Shown: positions 11,980 through 62,224 of the stretch, piece after piece
Position numbering within the stretch: the stretch's first letter is position 1
Layout of the letters: each line of letters begins with the position of its first letter
Notes under the pieces: generated by a model
The model's input: only the letters and a program-made list of their open reading frames with translations
Databases searched by the model: none
What the model was told of the DNA's origin: nothing
Assembly: GCF_000772955.1 (NCBI RefSeq)
Contig: NZ_JPVO01000054.1
Span: 248,001-312,000, forward strand
DNA length: 64,000 bases
Origin: Ureibacillus sinduriensis BLB-1 = JCM 15800
GTDB taxonomy: Bacteria; Bacillota; Bacilli; Bacillales_A; Planococcaceae
Direction of reading: 5' to 3'
Made by a program: the position numbers and the translations under genes

Positions 11980-12150
11980 TTAGAAATTGCATAATAGGTG
12001 GCGTTCTTGGCTCACATTACCATCTGAATCTACCATAATATGATTAACAGTCAATTTATTGCGACTGTAAAACTTATCTAAGAAATTCCTTGAAATTGTT
12101 TGAATAGAAGGAAAATTTATTATAAAATAATTAAAAGTAAATAATTCAAG
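11980..12150 (-). other. Open frame without a start, possible gene remnant
   Basis: On the minus strand 57 codons stay open, ending HIMVDSDGNVSQERHLLCNF. The second half reads like ordinary protein, the first half is AT-rich. There is no credible start or ribosome site, and in AT-rich DNA this length can arise by chance. No family is recognised. The rest of the 11,879-12,150 gap shows nothing else. Confidence 0.15.
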
Positions 12151-12391
12151 CTATGATGAAAAAGAGTAATATTATGAAGTGGCATAGAGAGCTAGCGGTT
12201 GGTGGAAGCTAGAACATGACATAATATGAATGGGCTTTCTAGCTACTAGTATTGAAATGACAGTAGGTACTAGCGTGACGTTACGTTAAAAACAGTTAAG
12301 TGGACTAAAATGGTTAAATGAACCGTCTTTTAGTCAATGAAGGTGGCACCACGGCTTTTCCGTCCTTTTTGTTGATGGAAGGGCCTTTTTA
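12150..12391 (+). promoter_or_regulatory. T-box riboswitch, tryptophan specifier
   Basis: A complete T-box leader precedes trpE. Stem I shows AGAGAG followed by the GGTTGGTGGAAGC apical region (about 12,187-12,209). The specifier loop reads GAA-TGG-GC with TGG (Trp) at 12,231-12,233. The T-box sequence AAGGTGGCACCACGG is at 12,340-12,354. The terminator arms GGCTTTTCC (12,353) and GGAAGGGCC (12,377) are followed by five T. Uncharged tRNA-Trp should stabilise the antiterminator and allow trpEG transcription. Confidence 0.93.
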
Positions 12392-27699: not shown

Positions 27700-27945
27700 C
27701 GGATGATTGTGCGGGGAGAGAACGTGAAGAGCGTCGCCGAAGGAGCAAGTAGTAAAAAGCTATGAATCTCTCAGGCAAAAAGACTCGTACAGGACGCATC
27801 TCTGGAGAGTGCTGTTTCGGTTGAATCAGCCACCAAAGGGGAAAGCCAATTTTTTCGATTCCAAACCATAAAAATCGATTTGGTGTAACTTTCAGGTACA
27901 AGGACAGGGGATTCCTAGAAATAGGGATTCGTCTGTCCTTTTTTT
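27700..27945 (+). promoter_or_regulatory. Tandem glycine riboswitch with terminator
   Basis: Two glycine aptamers in a row. The first (about 27,713-27,808) contains GGGGAGAGAA, CGCCGAAGGAGCAA, GAATCTCTCAGGCAAAAAGA and ends with CTCTGGAGAG. The second (about 27,809-27,911) contains CCACCAAAGGGGAAAGCC and AACTTTCAGGTACAAGGACAG. The expression platform is a terminator with arms AAGGACAG (27,900) and CTGTCCTT (27,933) followed by seven T. Glycine should prevent termination and switch on the glycine cleavage genes. Confidence 0.95.
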
Positions 27946-40512: not shown

Positions 40513-41070
40513 ATGATCTCAGTTAATGATTTCCGTACAGGCCTAACAGTGGAAATTGATGGTCAATTATACCGTGTGCTGGATTTCCAACACGTTAAAC
40601 CGGGGAAAGGTGCTGCATTCGTGCGCTCGAAATTGCGTAACCTTCGAAATGGCAACGTAACAGAAAAAACTTTCCGTGCCGGCGAAAAAGTGGAGAAAGC
40701 ACAAATCGACAACCGTAAAATGCAATATTTATATGCACAAGGGGATTCCCACGTATTCATGGATATGGAATCATATGAGCAAACTGAACTAGCAGGAGCA
40801 CAAATTGAAGAAGAATTAAAATACCTTCTTGAAAATATGGAAGTTCATATCCAATCTTATCAAGGCGAAATGTTGGGTGTTGAATTACCGAACACAGTTG
40901 TTCTTGAAGTTGCGGAAACTGAACCAGGTATTAAAGGCGATACTGCTTCAGGTGGTACAAAACCAGCAAAAATGCAAACTGGTTTAATGGTAAACGTGCC
41001 ATTCTTCGTCAATGAAGGCGATAAATTAATCATCAATACTACTGACGGATCATACGTATCCCGTGCTTAA
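40513..41070 (+). CDS. efp: Elongation factor P
   Basis: Rescues ribosomes stalled at polyproline. It has 185 residues and three beta-barrel domains. The loop PGKGAAF carries Lys32, the residue modified in B. subtilis EF-P; the C-terminus shows [32 protein letters not shown] precedes the ATG. It is cotranscribed with papA and followed by a strong terminator. Confidence 0.97.
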
Positions 41071-41093
41071 GTAGAAACGAGTTTGATATTTTG

Positions 41094-41137
41094 GAGTGCA
41101 GAAAAGTCAATTTGGCTTTAGTCTGCACTCTTTTTTG
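41094..41137 (+). terminator. Terminator of papA-efp
   Basis: A 9-bp stem GAGTGCAGA/TCTGCACTC with an inner AAAG/CTTT pairing, followed by six T. Confidence 0.88.
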
Positions 41138-41180
41138 TTTTTACGATTAATAATCGGGCGATGTTCATAATAAAGTTATA

Positions 41181-41215
41181 AAAAAGGTCATCTTCCTATT
41201 AGATGACTTTTTTCT
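41181..41215 (+). terminator. Second terminator just before the spoIIIA promoter
   Basis: A stem GTCATCT/AGATGAC extended by A-T pairs and followed by six T. It isolates the spoIIIA operon from upstream transcription. Confidence 0.75.
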
Positions 41216-41225
41216 TTATCCGTAG

Positions 41226-41254
41226 GTCTATTTTTTTGAACAAGCTCATATATT
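41226..41254 (+). promoter_or_regulatory. Sigma-E-like promoter of the shortened spoIIIA operon
   Basis: GTCTATT (-35) and CATATATT (-10) are separated by 14 bases, close to the mother-cell sigma-E pattern GHATATT-N14-CATACAHT. A start would fall at about 41,261, immediately before the spoIIIAC ribosome site. It indicates that the operon naturally begins with spoIIIAC here. Confidence 0.6.
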
Positions 41255-41277
41255 GCCTTACACAAGGAGGCGTCGTG

Positions 41278-41484
41278 ATGGAGTTACAGGACGTTTTGCG
41301 AGTAGCTGGAGTTGGGCTGATCATTGCACTTCTTCATGTTTTCTTCGAGCAAATCGGCAAAAAGGAATTCTCATTCTTTATATTTTTCATTGCATATCTT
41401 TATATTACAGCGGAACTAATACGATTTTTACGGCTTTTCTTCGGCGATATTCTTACATTCTTCCAGTGGCTGAGTTTAAATTAG
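41278..41484 (+). CDS. spoIIIAC: Stage III sporulation protein AC
   Basis: A mother-cell membrane protein of the SpoIIIA-SpoIIQ channel needed for late forespore gene expression. It has 68 residues, exactly the B. subtilis length, with two helices and the motif RVAGVGLIIALLHVFFEQIGKKE. The frame is open upstream, but AAGGAGG at 41,264 points to ATG 41,278 (or the GTG just before it). The two genes that normally precede it, spoIIIAA and spoIIIAB, are not here. Confidence 0.9.
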   Translation: MELQDVLRVAGVGLIIALLHVFFEQIGKKEFSFFIFFIAYLYITAELIRFLRLFFGDILTFFQWLSLN

Positions 41485-41493
41485 GTTAAATCT

Positions 41494-41871
41494 ATGACAT
41501 TTTTAATTTACGCCGTAATCCTAATGCTCCTTTTACTATTCATCAAGGAAACGATCAACAAACTACATGGAATAATTGTCGTTATCTTCTTTTTCGTCCT
41601 ACTATATTTCTTATTGTCGATGCTCACTATTCCTTTTATAGAGCAGCTCCTTTCATATGTTCAATCAGTGCCTTATGTACCTCAACTTGTGTACTCTGCA
41701 CTTTTTTATCAACTAGGCTTGTTCTTTCAATCAATTTTTGAAGAAGAGGATTATGAAACATTCGGCCAACTCGTAATGTTCTCAATTCGGATCGTACTGT
41801 TATTTTATTGGACTAGCGAACTAGGAAAAATATTGTCAGATTTATCGTCAATTTTAGAAATGCTTCAGTAA
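41494..41871 (+). CDS. spoIIIAD: Stage III sporulation protein AD
   Basis: 125 residues, four hydrophobic helices, including LLFIKETINKLHGIIVVIFFF and SIRIVLLFYWTSELGKILSDL. It is assigned by the SpoIIIAC/AD-like pattern and by position, nine bases after spoIIIAC. B. subtilis SpoIIIAD has 133 residues. Part of the membrane complex in the mother-cell membrane facing the forespore. Confidence 0.85.
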   Translation: MTFLIYAVILMLLLLFIKETINKLHGIIVVIFFFVLLYFLLSMLTIPFIEQLLSYVQSVPYVPQLVYSALFYQLGLFFQSIFEEEDYETFGQLVMFSIRIVLLFYWTSELGKILSDLSSILEMLQ

Positions 41872-41879
41872 GGGGCTAC

Positions 41880-42797
41880 GTGCCAATGCATGAAATACTA
41901 AATATCTTTTTAGACCCATTGAAAATTGCTGGACAATCCATCATTTTTATCCTGATTTATACCATCATGTTTTTGATTGTAGAAGCGTTTGTACCGAAAT
42001 TTAAAAAATGGGCAGATGCATTATTTGTGATTATTCTCGTTTTGACACTTGGAAAAACTGTGGTGGATGCTTTCTCATTGATGGGTGATTTAGTCAATGT
42101 TGCTTCCGATTTCTTTTTAGCAATTACACCAATTCTTACATCGCTATTGGTCGTTTTAAATGCTGTTTTTTCCTTTATAGCATGGAGCCCGGTCATTCTC
42201 TTTATTTTTGAGATGTTGATTTTACTTTGTAAAAAAATTTTAATTCCCGCCATCACGGTGGCATTGATACTCGATTTTTGTACAAGGTTTATTCAAGATA
42301 TTTCTTTTTCCAAGGCATCCGACTTAATACGGGGATCAGTTATGACATTGATTACTGCCTCGCTTATAGCGATGGTCACCGTACTTTCTTTTACGGGGGT
42401 GGCATTCTTTACAATTGACCAAGCCATCGCGAATCCTATAAAAAAGGTAATCGAGCAAACGGTACCTATTGTCGGCTCACTGATTGTTGAGGGCTTTTCG
42501 ATATTCCACAAATATCAATCGACAGCAACAACGGTCGTCGGCTTTGGCGCTATGACTGCTTTTTGGGGGGCTTCTTTCTATCCTGCTGGAAAGCTACTTA
42601 TTCATGCCTTAACATTCAAGTTTATTGCAGCAATAGTTGAACCTTTTACAGGCAGTACCATTAGTGGTTTGTTGGATGATGTGGGCAAGTCGTTATTGCT
42701 GCTTTGTGCAGTGGCCATCTTGTTAGGGATTGCCTTTGTCTTTATTTGGTTGATATTGATGATAATCTTGCAGCTAGGGGTGGGGAAAAGCTTTTGA
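41880..42797 (+). CDS. spoIIIAE: Stage III sporulation protein AE, short form
   Basis: A polytopic membrane protein of 305 residues against 399 in B. subtilis. The helical core is present, ending with the conserved KLLIHALTFKFIAAIVEPF region and DDVGKSLLLLCAVAIL. Missing is the N-terminal part: signal peptide and the soluble segment of roughly 90 residues. The start is GTG (41,880) or ATG (41,886) after TAAGGGG; no upstream extension is possible because spoIIIAD occupies the space. It ends in a 4-base overlap with the next short gene. Confidence 0.85.
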   Translation: MPMHEILNIFLDPLKIAGQSIIFILIYTIMFLIVEAFVPKFKKWADALFVIILVLTLGKTVVDAFSLMGDLVNVASDFFLAITPILTSLLVVLNAVFSFIAWSPVILFIFEMLILLCKKILIPAITVALILDFCTRFIQDISFSKASDLIRGSVMTLITASLIAMVTVLSFTGVAFFTIDQAIANPIKKVIEQTVPIVGSLIVEGFSIFHKYQSTATTVVGFGAMTAFWGASFYPAGKLLIHALTFKFIAAIVEPFTGSTISGLLDDVGKSLLLLCAVAILLGIAFVFIWLILMIILQLGVGKSF

Positions 42798-42931
42798 TCA
42801 AACTAATCGCGATTATTTTAATAGGAAAATGTTTACTACTTTTGGCAGATGAAAAGGACATCCTAGTCTATATAAAACTAGCAACTTTATTAATTTTTTT
42901 AACAACAATCTTAGATTTTCTGAAACTCTAA
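42794..42931 (+). CDS. 45-residue two-helix protein in the spoIIIAF position
   Basis: A TTG inside the stop of spoIIIAE (TTGA overlap) opens MIKLIAIILIGKCLLLLADE and ends ILDFLKL. Two short hydrophobic helices separated by a charged turn resemble the membrane part of SpoIIIAF, but the soluble ring-building domain that makes up most of the 206-residue B. subtilis protein is absent. Translational coupling supports a real gene. It is either a minimal SpoIIIAF or a remnant. Confidence 0.55.
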   Translation: MIKLIAIILIGKCLLLLADEKDILVYIKLATLLIFLTTILDFLKL

Positions 42932-43012
42932 AGCATAGAGTTGGGACTAGCTTCATACAATGTGTTGAAACAGAAAACTTTGTTCAGTAAGGTTGCCATC
43001 AGCTAAGAAGGC

Positions 43013-43534
43013 ATGTTCATTTCACGTATAAAGAGTATGGATGATGCTGAACAAAGGAAAGGCCTTTCGGTAAAATGCCGGGGTGTATTTGATAGAAAGG
43101 GGGCGCCAAGAGAACGTGAGGTGGAAAATAAGTGGAAAAAACAAAAATTAATCTTTATTCCGATTGCCGTATTAGTGTTCATTGCGTACATTTCTGTTAC
43201 GTGGAATGAGACAGATGAAGGGCAAAATCAATCTTCTACAGAAGAAGGCAGACTTGAACAAGTACTCGGTCAAATTCAAGGAGTTGGACAAGTAAAGGTA
43301 TATTTCCATTATGATAACCAAAATCCTAAAGAAAATGACTCGGACAGCTTACTGAATGGATACTTGGGTTCAAGTGACCGGGAAAAATATGTATCAGGAT
43401 TGCTCGTTGTATCGGAAGGGGCCTCTAACCCAGCTATTAAAAAGCAACTTTTAGAAACTATTAGTAGAGTCATGCAAATGCCTACTCACAGAATTATGAT
43501 TGTACCTATGGAGAACAAAGGAGATGAACAATGA
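43013..43534 (+). CDS. spoIIIAG: Stage III sporulation protein AG
   Basis: A single-pass protein that forms the large ring of the SpoIIIA channel in the intermembrane space. At most 173 residues (229 in B. subtilis). One helix (LIFIPIAVLVFIAYISVTW, about 45-63) precedes the ring-building domain EGRLEQVLGQIQGVGQVKVYF...VSGLLVVSEGASNPAIKKQLLETISRVM. The insert between these two pieces is about half the length of that in B. subtilis. The start is uncertain: ATG 43,013 has AAGAAGG too close; ATG 43,037 and GTG 43,121 are alternatives. Confidence 0.87.
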   Translation: MFISRIKSMDDAEQRKGLSVKCRGVFDRKGAPREREVENKWKKQKLIFIPIAVLVFIAYISVTWNETDEGQNQSSTEEGRLEQVLGQIQGVGQVKVYFHYDNQNPKENDSDSLLNGYLGSSDREKYVSGLLVVSEGASNPAIKKQLLETISRVMQMPTHRIMIVPMENKGDEQ

Positions 43535-44067
43535 AAGTTAAAAGAAGAACCGTATGGTTATTAACGCTACTAAGTTTGGCGGCTGTGATTTCAGTTTATT
43601 ATGTATTTGAACCAAATCGAAATGTGGATTTAACAACAATTTTTACTGATGATACACTCCAGGAAACAACTCTGACGGGTGTAACGGAAGAGGAAATTAC
43701 AACAACGACTTCAGAAAGTTACTTATTCGATGAAATGCGCATGGAAGTAAGTAACGAACGTGACCAACTAAGAACACAATTGACTGACAAAATTGCATCC
43801 GATGACTATACAGCAGAAGAAAAGAGTGCAGCATATAATGAAATGAATGCGTTGATTGCACAAGAATCTTCTGAATCTATGCTGGAAATGCTAATTGAAT
43901 CGATCGGCTATTCAGATGCGTTAGTTCGCATAAGCGATGATAAAGTGGCAGTCTCAGTACTAACTGATGAGTTATCTTCGGCGCAAGCAAACGAGATTAT
44001 TTACATCGTAAAATCAGAAATCGAAGATGCACAAGTGACGGTAAACCCAGAATCAAATTACTATTAG
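43531..44067 (+). CDS. spoIIIAH: Stage III sporulation protein AH
   Basis: The mother-cell partner of forespore SpoIIQ. It has 178 residues (218 in B. subtilis): N-terminal helix MKVKRRTVWLLTLLSLAAV, an acidic Thr-rich linker, and the ring-building domain with SSESMLEMLIESIGYSDALVRISDDKVAVSV. AAAGGAG precedes the ATG, which overlaps the spoIIIAG stop by 4 bases. Confidence 0.93.
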   Translation: MKVKRRTVWLLTLLSLAAVISVYYVFEPNRNVDLTTIFTDDTLQETTLTGVTEEEITTTTSESYLFDEMRMEVSNERDQLRTQLTDKIASDDYTAEEKSAAYNEMNALIAQESSESMLEMLIESIGYSDALVRISDDKVAVSVLTDELSSAQANEIIYIVKSEIEDAQVTVNPESNYY

Positions 44068-61273: not shown

Positions 61274-62224
61274 ATGAAGTGCCATTTGCGTAATCTGTTT
61301 ACGTTTATCTTGCTCATGGTTTTCATTTTATCGCCAAATGCTGAAGCTTTTGCGAAAAAATTAATTCCGATGGGCGAATCAATTGGGATACAGTTACAAT
61401 TGCCATTTGTTTACGTCGCTCATGATGTGCTGCTGCCAAATGGTCAGTGGCTGAAAAAAGGTGATGTAATCAAAGGAGTTAACGGCTCGGAAGTATCATC
61501 AGTTGATAAAATAAAACAACAATTAGGCACTAAAGAGCTTACGTTATCCGTTAAACAAAAAGCGCAAGAGCCTCGTGATATATCACTGACAAGCGAGCAG
61601 GCAAACAATATTTTGCCCTTTCTGAAAGATGAAACGGATGGCATCGGGACATTAACCTTTATAGATCCAGAATCGAAACAATATGGCGCGTTAGGTCATC
61701 AGATAATTGATGGTGTTTTAAATGAACCACCAGACTTTACAGATGGGTCGATATTCCTAGCCTCCATAGAGCAAATAAAGAAAAGCAGCCCGGGAAATCC
61801 AGGCTATAAGATCTCGGTTATAGAAAATAACAACATTCGATTAGGGAATGTGAAGTCGAATGACTTATATGGTATTTTTGGTAGTTGGGAGAGCGAATTA
61901 AAAAATAATTTACGAAAACCGATTGAAATAATGAAAGATGATGAAATTGCGTTAGGAAAAGCTGAAATTTATACAGCGATTGAAGGTTCAGAAGTAGAGG
62001 CATTTGAAATTGAAATCGTGAAGATTGATGATAATTTCCTGCAATTCGTAGTAACCGATAAAGAACTCCTTGAAAAAACAGGCGGCATTCTACAAGGTAT
62101 GAGTGGCAGCCCAGTTATACAAAACGGTCAATTTGTTGGTGCAGTGACCCATATGTTTGTCGAACAGCCATCAAAAGGTGCTGCAATTACAGTAAATGAA
62201 ATGTTGAAGAAAAAACCGGAATAA
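61274..62224 (+). CDS. spoIVB: SpoIVB signalling protease, short form
   Basis: The S55-family serine peptidase released from the forespore to trigger pro-sigma-K processing. It has 316 residues against 426 in B. subtilis. A signal anchor (about 8-26) leads almost directly into a short PDZ region (GESIGIQLQL...KGDVIKGVNGSEV). Catalytic residues are preserved: H142 in YGALGHQI, D262, and S277 in LQGMSGSPVIQNG. The Asp-Ser spacing of 15 equals that of B. subtilis D363-S378. The N-terminal domain of about 100 residues between membrane and PDZ is missing. A strong AAAGGAGGTGG precedes the ATG. Confidence 0.92.
   Translation: MKCHLRNLFTFILLMVFILSPNAEAFAKKLIPMGESIGIQLQLPFVYVAHDVLLPNGQWLKKGDVIKGVNGSEVSSVDKIKQQLGTKELTLSVKQKAQEPRDISLTSEQANNILPFLKDETDGIGTLTFIDPESKQYGALGHQIIDGVLNEPPDFTDGSIFLASIEQIKKSSPGNPGYKISVIENNNIRLGNVKSNDLYGIFGSWESELKNNLRKPIEIMKDDEIALGKAEIYTAIEGSEVEAFEIEIVKIDDNFLQFVVTDKELLEKTGGILQGMSGSPVIQNGQFVGAVTHMFVEQPSKGAAITVNEMLKKKPE

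Follow-up and report, generated by a model that had tools for sequence, protein, structure and literature searches.

The window, that is, the whole stretch of 64,000 nucleotides of Ureibacillus sinduriensis BLB-1 = JCM 15800 analysed here, carries a spoIIIA operon that begins at spoIIIAC. The features of the locus are the following.

40513-41070: efp, ending 207 bases before the spoIIIAC start at 41278
41096..41140, plus strand: terminator after efp (fold of -15.8 kcal/mol, z -3.9 against shuffles)
41178..41216, plus strand: second terminator-like hairpin, T-rich on both strands (-13.7 kcal/mol, z -5.3 against shuffles)
41226..41254, plus strand: sigma-E-type promoter motif P1, GTCTATT-N14-CATATATT, directly 5' of spoIIIAC
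41278..41484, plus strand: spoIIIAC, 68 aa (TIGR02848 29.8 bits, E 6e-7, below the cut-off of 56.65)
41494..41871, plus strand: spoIIIAD, 125 aa, very divergent, assigned mainly by position and length
41886..42797, plus strand: spoIIIAE, 303 aa from ATG, N-terminal segment absent (PF09546 98 bits, over the cut-off)
42794..42931, plus strand: spoIIIAF stub, 45 aa, two hydrophobic stretches, with a TTG start that overlaps the spoIIIAE stop
42933..42961, plus strand: internal sigma-E-type promoter motif P2, GCATAGA-N14-CATACAAT, in the spacer between the stub and spoIIIAG
43121..43534, plus strand: spoIIIAG, 137 aa, GTG start (TIGR02830 56.9 bits, cut-off 147.7; 5wc3 E 9e-7)
43531..44067, plus strand: spoIIIAH, 178 aa (PF12685 94 bits, over the cut-off)

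The first-pass annotation had described an operon starting at spoIIIAC, 207 bases past efp, behind two terminators and a cleanly placed sigma-E-like promoter, and this description holds: the coordinates run from 41070 to 41278, both hairpins fold far better than their shuffles, and the promoter motif is kept in every distinct upstream sequence compared. A pattern scan for terminators lists only the 41178-41216 hairpin, in its minus-strand version. P1 consists of a -35 element (GTCTATT, 41226-41232), a 14 bp spacer and a -10 element (CATATATT, 41247-41254), P1 and P2 alike being judged by the general sigma-E consensus. Among 67 distinct upstream sequences, taken from 91 loci and many of them closely related, CATANNNT is present at -36 to -28 upstream of spoIIIAC in 67/67; CATA occurs in 72 of 1474 same-width control windows (4.9%). 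The -35 match is at least 5/7 in 56/67 of these sequences (shuffles: mean 13.8, max 21). For P2, CATANNNT is found in 68/68 distinct spacers, 66 of which score 12/15 or better, as against a mean of 3.4 and a maximum of 8 in shuffles, the counts for both promoters being non-independent because sequences within one genus are kin. In L138, one of the high-scoring P2 spacers, the best site lies elsewhere, inside the stub. Together, the two motifs divide the operon into an AC-AD-AE-AF(stub) part and an AG-AH part.

The intergenic regions hold other elements. Six of 16 relatives (L037, L038, L039, L041, L042, and L046) have, between efp and spoIIIAC, an ORF that we take to resemble nitronate monooxygenase; where efp falls outside the stretch, this ORF simply precedes spoIIIAC. 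The remaining gaps among the 16 loci contain an acetyltransferase-like ORF, a possible lipoprotein, or short frames only, and no hidden SpoIIIAA or SpoIIIAB was seen in the relatives with long gaps. Between P2 and spoIIIAG (42977-43056 in the window), 13 of 26 loci (L001-L026) have an extra leader, with spacers of 167-242 nt vs 69-73 nt, most of them containing an inverted repeat like CTTTGTTCAG...CTGAACAAAG. This is possibly a structured 5' leader; Rfam gives no match at it. Elsewhere in the window, a T-box leader (12144-12370) and a glycine riboswitch (27703-27796) reach their Rfam gathering scores.

The proteins of the operon were compared, as family profiles, with those of other families, for which 18 outgroup loci were reduced to 17 by omitting L084 (odd AE and AF lengths). 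The AC, AE, AG, and AH homologues match at hhalign probabilities of 97-100% (97.1% for AC), with the genes in order, outgroup AC being represented by 13 of the 17 loci, AD and accB by 15 each, and the family by 11 of 12 genera for AG; the efp comparison was dropped, as only two outgroup rows existed. SpoIIIAD, which has no NCBIfam match and one irrelevant weak match in Pfam, aligns with outgroup AD over its full length (123 columns) at an hhalign probability of 27.5%, E 6.5e-4, when 10 of 12 genera are used (L034 and L036 out). AC, AE, and AG score below their NCBIfam cut-offs, while AE and AH are over those of Pfam. SpoIIIAE gives 76 bits with TIGR02829 (cut-off 247) and covers only profile positions 97-375; it has about 300 residues in the family vs 387-439 in the 17 outgroup rows. 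In the alignment, the family rows are missing the first, signal-like hydrophobic segment and the stretch after it, and their start corresponds approximately to the second hydrophobic segment of the two outgroup proteins scanned. No internal stops were found in SpoIIIAE among the matches listed. One metagenome-assembled genome (G053; L002/L101 and L121) holds two SpoIIIAE copies, 98% and 44% identical to that of the window, which is likely a contamination of the bin. SpoIIIAG is shortened in its turn: with 28 of the 46 distinct family sequences aligned, the block from the first strand to GVLVVA has 25-40 residues in 28/28 family rows (35 in the window) and 68-70 in 17/17 outgroup rows, so that about half of it is gone; the insert of the ring-building domain would lie there, and the flanks of the ring-building motif are kept. 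A motif inserted in this domain makes up most of the cup of the 30-fold ring, according to two reports (PMC6934232; PMC8092281), and the residues lost from SpoIIIAG would correspond to that cup insert. SpoIIIAH matches known structures well (3uz0, E 5e-18; 3tuf, E 2e-17).

The frame after spoIIIAE has been related to SpoIIIAF by several lines of evidence. It consists of the two membrane helices only, the ring-building domain being missing, and its profile matches outgroup SpoIIIAF with an hhalign probability of 96% (E 4.8e-9, alignment positions 3-51); none of the seven remaining SpoIIIA proteins, and no reversed profile, exceeds 3.1%. In hmmsearch with the stub, all 17 outgroup SpoIIIAF proteins outrank every other SpoIIIA protein tested. 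A two-helix frame that has a standard start and encodes 39-59 residues lies between spoIIIAE and spoIIIAG in 85 of 91 loci, a redundant set with 55 distinct sequences. No such frame with ATG, GTG, or TTG start was found at the expected place in the other six (L034, L132, L134, L135, L136, and L142), all Psychrobacillus-type loci, in which another start codon may serve, since the close relatives L131, L133, and L144 show the frame. The stub was also aligned across 26 loci, of which 25 come from genomes that share the window's genus label and one, L002, is a locus 98% identical to it from a metagenome bin. In this set the stub has 45 codons throughout, without gaps, and always ends in the same stop codon; its median dN/dS is 0.11 (297 of 324 pairs usable), and the two other reading frames give 0.58 and 4.1. 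As judged from these alignments, spoIIIAF is not absent in the family and survives as a stub under purifying selection.

The absence of SpoIIIAA and SpoIIIAB, which the first-pass annotation had considered for the whole genome, has been confirmed at two levels. Neither the SpoIIIAA (PF19568) nor the SpoIIIAB (PF09548) model finds a match in the own genome, which has 4.02 Mb and is 99.98% complete, and both match the B. subtilis control. Among 200 genomes from 19 genera of the GTDB family to which the window belongs, none has a SpoIIIAA match and none a SpoIIIAB match over the cut-off; weak SpoIIIAB matches in 3/200 were taken as chance, as they are below the cut-off and lie in frames of 340-2955 residues. 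A SpoIIIAE relative is present in 151 of these 200 genomes (13 of 19 genera), with no SpoIIIAE match in the other 49. In a class-wide sample of 250 genomes, 177 have SpoIIIAE and 164 SpoIIIAA; SpoIIIAE without SpoIIIAA is the state of all 14 SpoIIIAE-bearing genomes of the family and of none of the 163 others, and one genome (G272) has SpoIIIAA with no SpoIIIAE match. An order sample of 200 genomes also contains no SpoIIIAA, and it adds little because its listed rows are family-sample genomes. The locus itself is in the same state in 16 relatives with 11 further genus labels, where AC, AE, AG, AH, and accB are present in 16/16, and efp in 15/16 (in L046 it lies outside the stretch); BLAST finds AD in 14/16. 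It is also found in 45 named loci, some of them from the same genomes as the 16, which belong to Ureibacillus, Lysinibacillus, Metasolibacillus, Solibacillus, Viridibacillus, Sporosarcina, Psychrobacillus, and Bhargavaea, and include two 'Bacillus' and one unassigned metagenome record; the closest named relatives of the window are Lysinibacillus and Ureibacillus records. In the NCBI taxonomy, Ureibacillus is placed in Caryophanaceae and Psychrobacillus in Bacillaceae. The absence of the two genes is thus as first described, although the change is wider than that, because AF is a stub and the AE N-terminus and the AG insert are reduced as well.

SpoIID (over the cut-off), SpoIIQ, and SpoIIID (both below it) adjoin one another in the own genome, SpoIIQ being a protein of 229 residues (L094:6724-7413) with 179.7 bits in its model (cut-off 250) and E 1.8e-25 with 3tuf_B. 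Of the three genes that had been named as signs of continued sporulation, all of them in the window, Tlp and Spo0A are over their cut-offs, whereas SpoIVB stays below (244 of 305 bits). SpoIVB (61274-62224 in the window) is short, with 316 aa, and its N-terminus may also be reduced, because the model matches from position 88 on only. SpoIIM was not found in the own genome; it matches in 18 of the 200 family genomes, 15 over the cut-off. GerM-domain matches occur in 45 of the 200, 31 over the cut-off. The sole match of this domain in the own genome, which has 22.7 bits (23.1 when the neighbours are included) and so lies right at the cut-off of 23, was rejected as GerM; it belongs to a 410-residue protein just past an ECF-sigma-like gene, which we take from this context to be an anti-sigma factor.

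Rates of evolution distinguish the members of the operon. The median dN/dS of spoIIIAE is 0.05, from 191 of 325 usable pairs, many of them saturated. When mean pairwise identity is compared between the family and other families at a matched accB identity of 55-65% (a second band was dropped, having only 1-2 outgroup pairs), AD has 0.24 in the family vs 0.69 in the others (17 and 30 pairs) and AE 0.31 vs 0.55 (32 and 47 pairs), in both cases with ranges that do not overlap; AG has 0.33 vs 0.42 (27 and 47 pairs), and AH 0.48 vs 0.35 (32 and 47 pairs), with overlapping ranges. No weight is placed on AC being more conserved, because one ORF in its outgroup set was probably miscalled, the minimum identity there being 0.16. 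Fast AD and AE together with a slow AH would fit the loss of a partner for the former and a larger role for the latter. In a tree of AE (15 family and 17 outgroup rows), a single branch with support 100/100 splits the two groups, so there is no sign of a mixed origin, and the simplest account is that the loss probably occurred once, in the ancestor of the family.

The loss of these genes has been reported before. A group of Planococcaceae and Lysinibacillus has been described as lacking SpoIIIAA, SpoIIIAB, SpoIIIAF, SpoIIM, SpoIIB, and GerM and yet forming spores, Jeotgalibacillus malaysiensis being different from this group (PMC7924749), and for L. sphaericus a similar list of missing genes was given from a genome that its authors distrusted (PMC3533761). 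The absence of SpoIIIAA and SpoIIIAB in Planococcaceae is therefore not new (PMC7924749; PMC3533761). According to a search of open-licence papers, what is new is the AF stub, the reduction of AE and AG, the promoter motifs, and the rate shift. Sporulation of B. subtilis falls to 0.001-0.003% when spoIIIAA, AB, AE, or AG is deleted and only to 5% when AH is, the direct H-Q contact being dispensable; the same paper treats the function of SpoIIIA-SpoIIQ as an open question, as it does the matter of whether the ATPase is a pump at all (PMC12720343). Given that requirement, spore formation without SpoIIIAA, for which published accounts exist in members of the family (PMC7924749; PMC5930826, in part), means that the complex has been rewired or is no longer needed. 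Rewiring is favored because purifying selection, open frames, and promoter motifs are kept and AH conservation is raised.

It is thus fairly probable, from sequence comparison, that the locus represents the reduced, ancestral SpoIIIA form of the family and specifies a functional SpoIIIA-SpoIIQ complex without a motor. The motor pair, the SpoIIIAA ATPase and SpoIIIAB, is not encoded, and SpoIIIAC, AD, AE, AG, AH, and SpoIIQ are kept as open frames; the complex would be organized as a membrane unit of AC, AD, AE, and the AF stub and a second unit of AG, AH, and SpoIIQ. The complex might still assemble between mother cell and forespore and support late forespore development, operating with no motor of its own to hydrolyse ATP, perhaps as a conduit that is passive or driven by a gradient, as a zipper centred on AH and SpoIIQ, or as both, and the load might have shifted from AD and AE, which presumably contacted the motor, to AH. 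Several facts go against a working complex of this kind: the fast divergence of AD, AE, and AG could also mean partial decay, AD owes its assignment chiefly to place and size and escaped BLAST in 2 of 16 relatives, there are the 49 family genomes with no SpoIIIAE match as well as the GerM-domain and SpoIIM matches in 45 and 18 of the 200, and the ATPase motifs of SpoIIIAA are required in B. subtilis (PMC2703783, in excerpt). A broader proposal, more tentative than the former and somewhat doubtful, is that the family runs its mother cell-forespore complex motorless in general, having shed the motor, the AF ring, and the AG cup (GerM being reported lost too), with the function residing in SpoIIIAH-SpoIIQ and the small AC-AD-AE-AF(stub) unit. 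If this were true, ATP-driven secretion would be an add-on of B. subtilis and not the core of spore nurturing. A natural version without motor, AF ring, and AG cup offers a direct test of whether the channel needs its motor; if the reduced complex supports spores and replaces that of B. subtilis, the core function must lie elsewhere than in ATP-driven transport. The record of SpoIIIAF absence in these bacteria is also corrected, and models tuned on other families are seen to miss these genes, with NCBIfam scores far below the cut-offs.

Alternatively, another secretion-type ATPase (ComGA, or one of TadA-, PilB- or PilT-like type) could have replaced SpoIIIAA. The own genome does have four T2SSE-type ATPases: ComGA, in the window, is over its NCBIfam cut-off and reaches a weak 22.5 bits with the SpoIIIAA model, whose cut-off is 281.3, a TadA-like ATPase has 335.7 bits (cut-off 373), and the two further ones, beside a PilC-like gene, are presumably PilB and PilT. 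However, each candidate lies among the genes of its own machine, in comG, type IV pilus, and Tad clusters, and none beside a recognised sporulation gene, as far as the neighbouring genes could be recognised; besides, the presumed motor platform, SpoIIIAB, is missing too, and AD and AE have lost constraint. Use of a different ATPase by the channel, as had been suggested at first, is consequently the less likely course, and we regard such a replacement as improbable. We also regard as unlikely that the operon is decaying, the channel being no longer needed for sporulation in the family and the remaining genes being relics. The fast divergence of AD, AE, and AG, the lost domains, and the missing SpoIIIAE match in 49 of 200 family genomes would be expected under decay, but the median dN/dS values (0.05 for AE and 0.11 for the stub), the absence of internal stops in SpoIIIAE among the matches listed, the kept promoter motifs (67/67 for P1 and 66/68 for P2), and an AH more conserved in the family than elsewhere speak against it. 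Finally, a misassembly between efp and spoIIIAC, or a deletion there at the level of the strain, has nothing but the short gap in its favor and is refuted because the reduced state is common to the family, being shared by the 16 relatives from 11 further genus labels and the 45 named loci, partly the same genomes.

With regard to known systems, the motor pair of type II/IV secretion, a secretion ATPase with a GspF/TadB-like platform, is what SpoIIIAA and SpoIIIAB resemble (PMC2703783, in excerpt), and this module is wholly missing at the locus. The loss published for the Planococcaceae/Lysinibacillus group (PMC7924749), and for L. sphaericus (PMC3533761), is alike in that SpoIIIAA and SpoIIIAB are missing, SpoIIM also not being found in the own genome; it differs in that, in the passages of those reports drawn on here, SpoIIIAF is scored absent, where a conserved stub exists, and SpoIIIAG is absent in some places, where a shortened protein exists, the changes in AE, AG, promoters, and rates not being among what those passages describe. 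Compared with the SpoIIIA-SpoIIQ (A-Q) channel of B. subtilis, the locus has no SpoIIIAA or SpoIIIAB, an AE without its N-terminal segment, an AF reduced to a two-helix stub, an AG without most of its insert, and no convincing GerM in the own genome. On the other hand, it shares with that channel the position between efp and accB, the order AC-AD-AE-AF-AG-AH, a SpoIIQ homologue, and an internal promoter before spoIIIAG, which is known, as excerpted, in B. subtilis and in C. difficile (PMC6934232).
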